48,349 nt of DNA, from NCBI GenBank assembly GCA_028287865.1, contig JAQBOU010000264.1, positions 1 through 48,349 of the forward strand. Reading direction: 5' to 3'. Position 1 is the stretch's first letter; each line of letters begins with the position of its first letter. Made by a program: the position numbers and the translations under genes. This DNA comes from Mucilaginibacter sp. (GTDB lineage Bacteria > Bacteroidota > Bacteroidia > Sphingobacteriales > Sphingobacteriaceae). Positions 42,384-44,021 of this stretch are shown here, piece by piece. The notes below the pieces were generated by a model. That model saw only the letters and a program-made list of their open reading frames with translations, did not search any database and was not told the origin of the DNA.

Positions 42384-43892
42384 ATGGATTTGCTTATTCC
42401 GGATAAGGTACATGATGAGAGCAGGCAGGGTGAGGCCTTGGTTTTAGGGCAGGTTAGCGGTAAACACAATGGCCGTAAACTTTACATTGAAAGTTATGGT
42501 TGTGCCATGAATTTCTCTGATAGTGAGATCGTAGCTTCCATTTTGCTGGAACAGGGATTTGAAACTACATCAGATTTTAACGTGGCCGATGTTATTTTTA
42601 TAAATACCTGCTCCATTCGTGAAAATGCTGAACAACGCGTTCGTAACCGCTTGCGCGAATTTACGATAGCCAAAGTTAAAAATCCGGGCCTGGTGGTAGG
42701 TGTGCTGGGTTGCATGGCCGAGCGTTTAAAGGCCAAATTTTTAGAAGAGGAAAAATTGGTTGATGTAGTGGTGGGCCCGGATGCCTATCGTGATCTGCCT
42801 AATTTAATAGAACAGGTTGACAGCGGTCAGAAAGCAGTGAACGTTCTTTTATCCCGCGAAGAAACATATGCAGACATAAGCCCGGTACGTTTAAACAGCA
42901 ACGGGATTAATGCTTTTGTATCTATTATGCGAGGCTGCGACAATATGTGTTCATTTTGCGTAGTGCCGTTTACCCGTGGCCGCGAACGCAGCCGCGACCC
43001 GCAATCAATTGTTAAAGAATGTACCGACCTGTTTAACCAGGGATACCGTGAAGTTACCTTACTTGGGCAGAATGTGGATTCTTATAAATGGGGACAGCAA
43101 AGTCCGAAAGTAGGGGAGTCCGAAAGTCCGGAAGCAGGAAGTTATAATTTAGAAAATCAAAAAGTCTCCCCAACAGGGAAAGATTTAGAGGGGGCAGGAG
43201 TTGTTAACTTTGCCAGCCTGCTGGAGATGGTTGCCTCTATAAACTCTGAACTGCGGGTGCGTTTTTCAACATCCCATCCAAAGGATATCACTGACGAGGT
43301 TTTGTACACCATTAAAAAATACGACAACATCTGCAAATACATTCATCTGCCTGTACAATCTGGCAATAGCAGGGTATTGGAGCTGATGAACCGTACTTAT
43401 GACCGGGATTGGTATACCGGGCGTATTGATGCCATCCGTCGTATTATACCTGAATGTGCTATCTCAACGGATGTAATTACGGGTTTTTGTACCGAAACCG
43501 ACCAGGAGCACCAGGATACTTTGAGCATGATGGATTACGTGAATTACGATTTTGCTTACATGTTTATGTACTCTGAACGACCGGGGACCTTAGCTGCCAA
43601 ACGATATGCTGATGATATACCCGATGCTGTTAAACGCAGCCGTTTAAAAGAAATAGTAGCAAAGCAGCAGGAGCACTCTTATTTAAGGTTACAAAAATTG
43701 GTAGGCACAACACAAAAAGTATTGATTGAAGGTTTCTCTAAAAAGTCGGATAACGATTATTGCGGCAGGAGCGATCAAAATGCCATGGTTGTTTTCCCGG
43801 TAAGCGAAAACTATAAACCTGGTCAATATGTAAAAGTGAAAATAGAAAGAAGCACAACGGCAACGTTGATAGGCGTCCCCCAAACCCCCTAA
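42384..43892 (+). CDS. miaB: tRNA-2-methylthio-N6-dimethylallyladenosine synthase MiaB, with an in-frame repeat-derived insertion
   Basis: The 502-residue radical-SAM methylthiotransferase adds the 2-methylthio group to i6A37 of tRNAs. The N-terminal UPF0004 domain has Cys40, Cys76 and Cys110; the radical-SAM motif GCDNMCSFC gives Cys185, Cys189 and Cys192; a TRAM domain ends the protein. All key residues are intact. Homologues are usually 440-480 residues. The excess lies at about residues 237-273, between [11 protein letters not shown] and [10 protein letters not shown], where Ser/Gly/Glu-rich sequence is encoded by word repeats. The last residues and the TAA stop (43890-43892) lie within a palindromic repeat. 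Confidence 0.93.
43092..43198 (+). repeat. In-frame repeat insertion inside miaB
   Basis: Two parts can be seen. First, AGTCCGAAAGT occurs at 43101-43111 and again at 43117-43127, with further near-copies to 43142. Second, 43161-43198 contains AAAGTCTCCCCAACAGGG and then GATTTAGAGGGGGCAGG, which resembles palindromic intergenic repeats of this group. There is no stop in the miaB frame, and the flanking protein sequence resumes normally. Confidence 0.7.
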
Positions 43893-44021
43893 AGGGGAGT
43901 TACGTCCTGGGGGTACCGGATGGGATTGTTTTTTTGAAGAATAATAATTAATCAAGTCAACTCCCCTTTAGGGATGGGGCTAAAACATTTAAATTAACTC
44001 CCCCTTTAGGGGGTCGGGGGG
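43877..44021. repeat. Three-copy CCCCTTTAGGGG-type palindromic repeat between miaB and the sigma-54 activator
   Basis: A copy at 43877-43902 is inverted relative to one at 43995-44021; apart from one inserted base and one or two substitutions they are complementary. A third, shorter copy is at 43959-43979. Each holds a C4-5 TTTA G4-5 core (or its complement) with a G-rich flank. The first copy supplies the miaB stop codon; the third ends one base before the ATG of the next gene. No gene is seen in the 130-base spacer. Confidence 0.82.

Follow-up and report, generated by a model that had tools for sequence, protein, structure and literature searches.

The miaB gene in a 48,349-nucleotide stretch of a Mucilaginibacter contig, the window of this analysis, contains a 38-codon in-frame loop that is almost certainly a repeat-derived insertion, at a site that has very probably been colonised recurrently. 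Across species, the same core-enzyme loops (in MiaB, AlaRS, LeuRS and a methylmalonyl-CoA-mutase fusion) host different elements, gain and loss have been repeated on the tree for MiaB and the mutase fusion, and in some loops palindromes bracket a DUF559 (Vsr/EDxHD-like) domain with no splicing domain found. The overall explanation that we favour with good confidence is a roaming repeat that enters permissive loops, a homing-type nuclease, and turnover by recombination. The whole analysis is sequence inference, conducted partly on MAGs. The relevant features of the window are as follows.

42384..43892, + strand: miaB, 502 residues, radical-SAM tRNA methylthiotransferase and host of the insertion (open reading frame, HMM, Pfam, Foldseek).
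43092..43205, + strand: repeat-derived in-frame loop of 38 codons, residues 237-274, between W236 and N275 (HMM, structure alignment, pLDDT).
43099..43136, + strand: short tandem units, AGTCCGAAAGT and variants, in the left part of the loop.
43154..43195, + strand: right half of a palindromic element with consensus AAAGTCTCCCCTACCGGGGGAGATTTAGAGGGGGC and core TTTAGAGGGGGC.
43876..43900, + strand: second, different palindromic stretch CCCCCAAACCCCCTAAAGGGG, encoding the last miaB residues and the stop codon.

The miaB product was assigned to TIGR01574 (MiaB) by HMM search, with 436.7 bits against a cut-off of 355.3; UPF0004, radical SAM and TRAM domains are all present (Pfam), and the top Foldseek matches of its model are 7mjv-7mjz. 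An earlier reading of the DNA letters alone (the sequence-only reading) had stated that the frame is kept and the cysteines are intact, and this holds: the frame is open over 42384-43892 and the six cysteines of the two clusters (C40, C76, C110, C185, C189 and C192) are invariant in a 55-row MiaB alignment. We infer that MiaB with the loop is still functional. The insertion had been placed at 43092-43198, about 35 residues; its presence is upheld, and its true extent is seven bases greater (43092-43205, 38 residues). The best-matching stretches of two MiaB HMMs stop at residue 235 and resume at 258, and the alignment to the solved Bacteroides MiaB is broken at residues 237/273 (chain residues 223 and 229), with about five residues in the solved protein where the Mucilaginibacter protein has its extra stretch. 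In an AlphaFold model derived from 55 MiaB sequences, the extra stretch follows a strand (223-227) and precedes a helix (276-284), and residues 240-269 are predicted to be disordered with pLDDT below 50, in agreement with the tolerated loop proposed earlier. Many relatives' MiaB matches stop at residue 497, near the CCCCCAAACCCCCTAAAGGGG palindrome, and G/C-rich palindromes like that at 43876-43900 can be followed through the intergenic DNA as far as about 44020.

The loop is a composite of two repeat classes rather than one repeat. The direct repeats reported by the sequence-only reading are confirmed in its left part, where AGTCCGAAAGT is found exactly twice (43101-43111 and 43117-43127); at up to one mismatch it has three matches in the window compared with 0.41 expected, and three or more were obtained in 1 of 100 shuffles. 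Stretches resembling the left tandem part (43099-43136) are located elsewhere in the same genome (G000), at G000:C199:20214 and G000:C114:5514. The right part contains GATTTAGAGGGGG at 43182-43194, which within the window gave two matches at up to two mismatches, a number reached by 22 of 100 shuffles and not significant; the meaning of the right half derives from its whole-genome copies and not from window statistics. The complete element consists of a left and a right half able to pair into one long palindrome. The piece described earlier as palindrome-like is thus correctly seen as part of a palindromic element, but MiaB holds only the right half of its two parts. The loop of this MiaB folds no better than shuffles (z -0.5), whereas the 39 MiaB loops of the genus that contain both halves fold better than simple base shuffles, with a median z of -5.1. 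A reversed-string control for GATTTAGAGGGGGC is invalid, as the mirrored string occurs in the element itself (read from the consensus).

The 191-bp MiaB region has 21 other matches in its own genome at E<=1e-3, mostly to the right half and at two places to the left tandem part, which supports the earlier description of an interspersed repeat. This 4.03-Mb genome has 27 exact copies of the core TTTAGAGGGGGC, counting the one in MiaB. Based on a six-frame reading of each copy and naming of the hosts, seven of these 27 copies are in frame inside genes, namely those for MiaB, IspG/GcpE, an AMP-binding/NRPS-like protein (AMP-ligase), AlaRS, a methylmalonyl-CoA-mutase/MeaB fusion and LeuRS (two copies). 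Six of these internal copies share one frame, coding for KVSPTGGDLEGA, with a variant of the peptide in MiaB, and the seventh is reversed, in the sole reverse frame open in that copy. Two further core copies lengthen proteins at the N-terminus, namely a Gfo/Idh/MocA oxidoreductase and the small subunit of an acetolactate synthase. None of the remaining 18 is traversed by a long open frame, and one of these directly precedes the start of an AroC-like frame. We also take HGPWTMDHGQ in IspG (L276), QISDFRFE at the LeuRS editing-domain site (L275) and GERLKAKGEESEK in the mutase fusion (L279) to be further repeat-like peptides of the hosts. Insertion of the element leaves the frame open with a frame-preserving length, such that MiaB becomes longer and is not broken.

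MiaB was found in 142 of the 149 genus genomes searched, and 141 of the 142 loops were readable in frame; one (L161) was dropped, ending at a contig end with no loop. The readable loops range from 21 to 192 nt. Recognisable palindrome halves are present in 60 (51-192 nt in length), short tandem units only in 21, and no recognisable repeat in 27 loops of at least 60 nt; 21 loops are near-empty (21-39 nt), one of them also counted as tandem-only. The right halves are of types A3 (20), B3 (23), A2 (8) and F3 (5), and the left halves of types B5 (25), A5 (13) and S5 (5), both halves being present in 39 of these loops. A B-type pair of about 84 nt forms a hairpin of -54 kcal/mol. Hybrids with a B-type left and an A-type right half (L050, L064) and a single fused hairpin (L116) were also found, and at least four classes of tandem units occupy the site alongside the palindromes. 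Outside the genus, the LLGQ-to-TSHP stretch mostly spans 40-55 residues, compared to 74 in the MiaB of the window; that of Pedobacter puniceum (L194) contains ASEDGTEK, and two outgroup records (L188, L219) show palindromes at the MiaB site by eye. The sister genome G117 carries the same loop (94% identical, with a flank dS of 0.69); hence, of the recent insertion proposed by the sequence-only reading, the repeat origin stands, while a very recent event in this lineage does not.

The history of the site was traced on a FastTree phylogeny of the MiaB flanks without the loop, which represents one protein (153 rows) and has support below 80 on 58 of its 150 inner branches. The three-way loop state requires at least 44 changes on this tree; the minimum is 17 for the A3/B3 type and 16 for the left half. 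Filled and empty loops are found in close neighbours, as in G025 (102 nt) and G116 (30 nt) at a tree distance of 0.009, G109 and G061 at 0.023, and G110 and G101 at 0.030. Conversely, the loops of G023 and G087 are 90% shared while their flanks differ by 47% at third positions.

Loop type was also compared with the repeat load of each genome, in counts that include each loop's own copy. Genomes with A3 or B3 loops (43) have a median of 27 copies, versus 6 for those without a palindrome in the loop (81) (P 6e-8, uncorrected for kinship), and the A3/B3 type tracks the genomic A/B ratio (P 0.003, likewise uncorrected). With the own copy subtracted, 15 of the 20 genomes with A loops and 11 of the 23 with B loops have more A than B. 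Kinship-independent pairs show the same direction without significance (3.8 versus 1.2, median p 0.375; 4.8 versus 0.7, median p 0.125). A plain read-out of the dominant genome repeat by loop type was rejected, as it holds only when kinship is uncorrected.

Two other host enzymes were compared across species. The methylmalonyl-CoA-mutase fusion was found in 96 of the 149 genomes, and its insertion site was classed in 85 of the 96 (11 unclassed): 37 are empty (e.g. RPEYVGGLPKGNDGLGL; called mostly from contiguous coordinates and sequence-checked in 18), 17 contain palindromes only, as in the genome of the window, and 31 contain DUF559. Three of the 85 are absent from the MiaB flank tree, and the states of the 82 mapped sites require at least 28 changes on it, with nuclease-bearing and empty sites separated by tree distances as short as 0.012 (G020 versus G042) and 0.015 (G004 versus G107). 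In G054, the left palindrome leads into RGYETADPALWG, with which the nuclease module begins, and the genome has no DUF559 match; this stump is what a past loss has left. The nuclease of G020 has one full palindrome pair to its left and another to its right, so that palindromes may settle independently in the linkers around an inserted domain. In the closed genome G022 (L382), the frame of the fusion is broken behind the nuclease, with open frames of 924 and 422 residues. The AlaRS genes of G062 and of the genome of the window contain a B-type pair and an A-type half, respectively, at the same insertion point. Among 30 inspected B-type copies of the 45 in G062, five are continued in both directions by long open frames; the mutase fusion holds two of these, and MiaB, LeuRS and AlaRS one each.

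In the LeuRS of the genome studied here, two inverted palindrome copies enclose an in-frame DUF559 domain, and Pfam recognises LeuRS domains alongside it. DUF559 is present in 132 of the 149 genus genomes, and the 150 matches listed, from a larger number, are divided by open frame into 59 of at least 900 residues, 45 of 300-899 and 46 of less than 300. The hosts, named by sequence inspection with Pfam confirmation on one or two examples each, are LeuRS (two sites), the mutase/MeaB fusion (L312), an Lhr-type DEAD helicase (L284), a methionine synthase (L407, from another genus) and a Type ISP specificity protein (L405). DUF559 is also fused to the N-terminus of a His_biosynth protein (L301), which we take to be HisF. 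The LeuRS of G191:C58 (L406) contains DUF559 in frame at both sites, with palindrome-coded peptides around each domain, and TruB (Pfam) has a C-terminal DUF559 between such peptides (L418, L419). A Pfam search for the Hint splicing domain expected of an intein detected none in the LeuRS, mutase fusion or MiaB of this genome, nor was a splicing domain found in eight DUF559-bearing proteins of relatives. DUF559 is found in none of the 141 readable MiaB loops (up to 192 nt). An apparent DUF559 inside MiaB in G234 (597-residue open frame) was rejected, the protein being a Type ISP specificity protein.

The association between palindromes and DUF559 was scored in the 250-nt flanks of 28 readable loci among the 30 best-scoring DUF559 loci, which are not a random draw; frames were accepted only with an RRQ-type motif, and L287, L300 and the free-standing gene of the genome of the window (L274) were not read. 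Scores of at least 15 on both sides were obtained for 22 of the 23 DUF559 copies in LeuRS, mutase or helicase, as well as for the LeuRS of this genome; the lone exception (L310) has a left score of 12.5. The 168 control stretches, of which a few hold palindromes themselves, have a mean of 8.9, a 95% quantile of 12.0 and a maximum of 35. Five N-terminal HisF fusions among the 28 loci score only 8-13.5 against these consensus halves, and for 20 free-standing DUF559 genes, picked from the listed short open frames, only 1 of 40 flanks reaches 15. With these 20 genes lacking palindromes, DUF559 in general was rejected as a palindrome mover. The other DUF559 gene of the genome of the window, free-standing at G000:C258:1299-2174, has two core copies nearby, at distances of about 260 and 550 bp, and thus adjoins palindromes, unlike the 20 checked in relatives.

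The embedded domains cluster by host site, with 7 changes compared to 21.0 in shuffles for 35 domains, a set from which most free-standing ones were left out and in which L296 is labelled free, its host actually being the mutase. RRQH, D, E-x-DG and other positions are invariant in 25 aligned domains, and 30 of 30 domains fit a motif that was written after inspecting them, which makes this count partly circular. The dN/dS ratio is 0.03-0.11 in six of ten pairs (rough values, at dS of 0.5-2.4; the other four pairs are saturated), and the embedded domains are under purifying selection. The fold matches NGO0050 (3hrl, E 1e-6), I-Bth0305I (3r3p, E 5e-4), which we take to be of the EDxHD/Vsr-like class, and, weakly, Vsr (1vsr, E 0.07). 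The nuclease fold and conserved catalytic residues of a homing endonuclease are therefore both found, except in the G020 copy (L364), which has lost the conserved Asp (IAAF for IADF) and is alone in this among 48 listed copies inspected by eye. Because of this loss, not all DUF559 copies can be active. No description of embedded DUF559 stood out in the open-licence full-text literature.

The MiaB stretch is best explained as a translated copy of a palindromic repeat that roams the genome, joined by a short tandem repeat, in a permissive surface loop. In the most likely mechanism, an embedded nuclease would cut empty alleles in the manner of homing, and repair would copy the insert in, while recombination with the genome copies would swap or erase palindromes. 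The palindromes may be the borders of the nuclease or its followers, and MiaB would carry a nuclease-free form, its loop being fed from the same repeat pool. The chances that embedded DUF559 is a mobile homing-type element are about even. An action of DUF559 on the MiaB site itself appears quite unlikely, the link being drawn by analogy because no readable MiaB loop holds the domain. A bolder version, which we advance only tentatively, is that palindrome-DUF559-palindrome cassettes are non-splicing, protein-embedded homing elements that are translated within their hosts, home into empty alleles, lose the nuclease and leave palindrome-only scars; the MiaB loop would hold such scars and be constantly overwritten from the repeat pool. 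The proposed cassette hosts are LeuRS (two sites), the mutase fusion, the Lhr-type DEAD helicase and methionine synthase, with the HisF and TruB ends.

Alternatively, slippage, template switching and ectopic recombination might fill tolerant loops and linkers, including those of DUF559, passively and with no dedicated enzyme. The sharing of the MiaB site by palindromes and at least four tandem-unit classes, the hybrids and the fused hairpin, and the palindrome pairs in both nuclease linkers of G020 are consistent with such accumulation, as is the presence of GAAGTCN (C) heptads in the genomes of seven of the eight C loops versus 20 of the 133 others (P 3e-5, uncorrected for kinship). However, the same sites are filled time and again across the genus, and of the 60 palindromic loops 39 contain both halves, which points to insertion as a unit, and we consider passive filling rather doubtful.

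Somewhat less likely still, the elements could be REP/BIME-type repeats mobilised by a RAYT (tyrosine transposase) that land in genes occasionally, with DUF559 unrelated. Their short palindromes and paired halves, the 18 of 27 copies without a long open frame and two Y1_Tnp matches in the genome of the window would suit this origin, and in-frame intragenic cases in other species are described in PMC3733652. However, no half-element with a score of at least 15 lies within about 1.5 kb on either side of the two Y1_Tnp genes, and for this genome the RAYT hypothesis was rejected on that ground. The REP tag GTAG/CGTC is absent, by eye, from the stem foot of both consensus halves; the A half has GTAG on the reverse strand, at its loop end, and the B half has no tag. 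A REP/RAYT origin also leaves the palindrome bracketing of embedded DUF559 unexplained.

A clade of 15 species (L073, L075, L080, L083, L093, L098 and others) has related loops of 132-138 nt (e.g. EKPVLGMDLLDKVLASGEDL), perhaps old decayed, perhaps retained, insertions. The sequence-only reading had named the same segment with non-repeat codons in close relatives as the mark of an ancient loop; such a segment is not found in the nearest relatives, and 12 of the 15 loops of this clade lack a recognisable repeat. Although these long related loops would fit an ancient functional MiaB loop whose likeness to repeats is incidental, this origin is highly improbable given that the kind of loop differs between sister species, that 21 of the 141 loops have at most 39 nt, and that the region has 21 other matches in its own genome.

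On the favoured reading of roaming repeats in permissive loops, core proteins here seem to be landing sites for unspliced mobile DNA. Filled, half-emptied and empty alleles coexist at fixed sites in 149 species genomes, which makes their turnover measurable. The data suggest that self-splicing may not be required for a selfish nuclease in a core gene and that a tolerant loop may suffice. Additionally, the sites in MiaB, LeuRS, AlaRS and methylmalonyl-CoA mutase form a natural list of insertion-tolerant points for protein engineering.

Coding palindromes were known earlier from Rickettsia (PMC10969869) and as intragenic REPs (PMC3733652); what is new here is that fixed sites are colonised recurrently and that some contain a homing-endonuclease-like domain, and both go beyond the analogy to the Rickettsia palindromic elements (RPE). 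The comparison to RPE drawn by the sequence-only reading is apt in kind, with an in-frame repeat in several unrelated genes. RPE, described by Ogata et al. and summarised in PMC10969869, are likewise palindromic repeats in frame in unrelated genes, coding for a conserved peptide, and are about 150 bp long, whereas the Mucilaginibacter elements are paired halves and shorter; the likeness drawn here is one of kind. Unlike RPE sites, the Mucilaginibacter loops are reused with different elements between species, and at some sites a nuclease domain lies between the halves.

Intragenic REPs, according to PMC3733652, are small palindromes, more than half of them in dimers or groups that add 20-30 residues, with tRNA synthetases and TruB among their hosts. 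The same paper places REPs at about the same recB site in two Xanthomonas species, and notes that TruB hosts RPE-1 in Rickettsia and REPs elsewhere. The Mucilaginibacter elements are similar in being small palindromes in core genes, including tRNA synthetases, but a nuclease-bearing state is additionally found at their mutase and LeuRS sites.

Inteins and homing endonucleases share with the present elements an in-frame nuclease in a core gene, a patchy presence at a fixed site and, through I-Bth0305I, the fold match. In contrast to inteins, no splicing domain was detected by Pfam, the insert apparently stays in the mature protein, and the borders are palindromic. The domain and fold are the same as those of DUF559 (PF04480) proteins such as NGO0050 (PDB 3hrl), which are free-standing, whereas the domains described here are embedded in other proteins.
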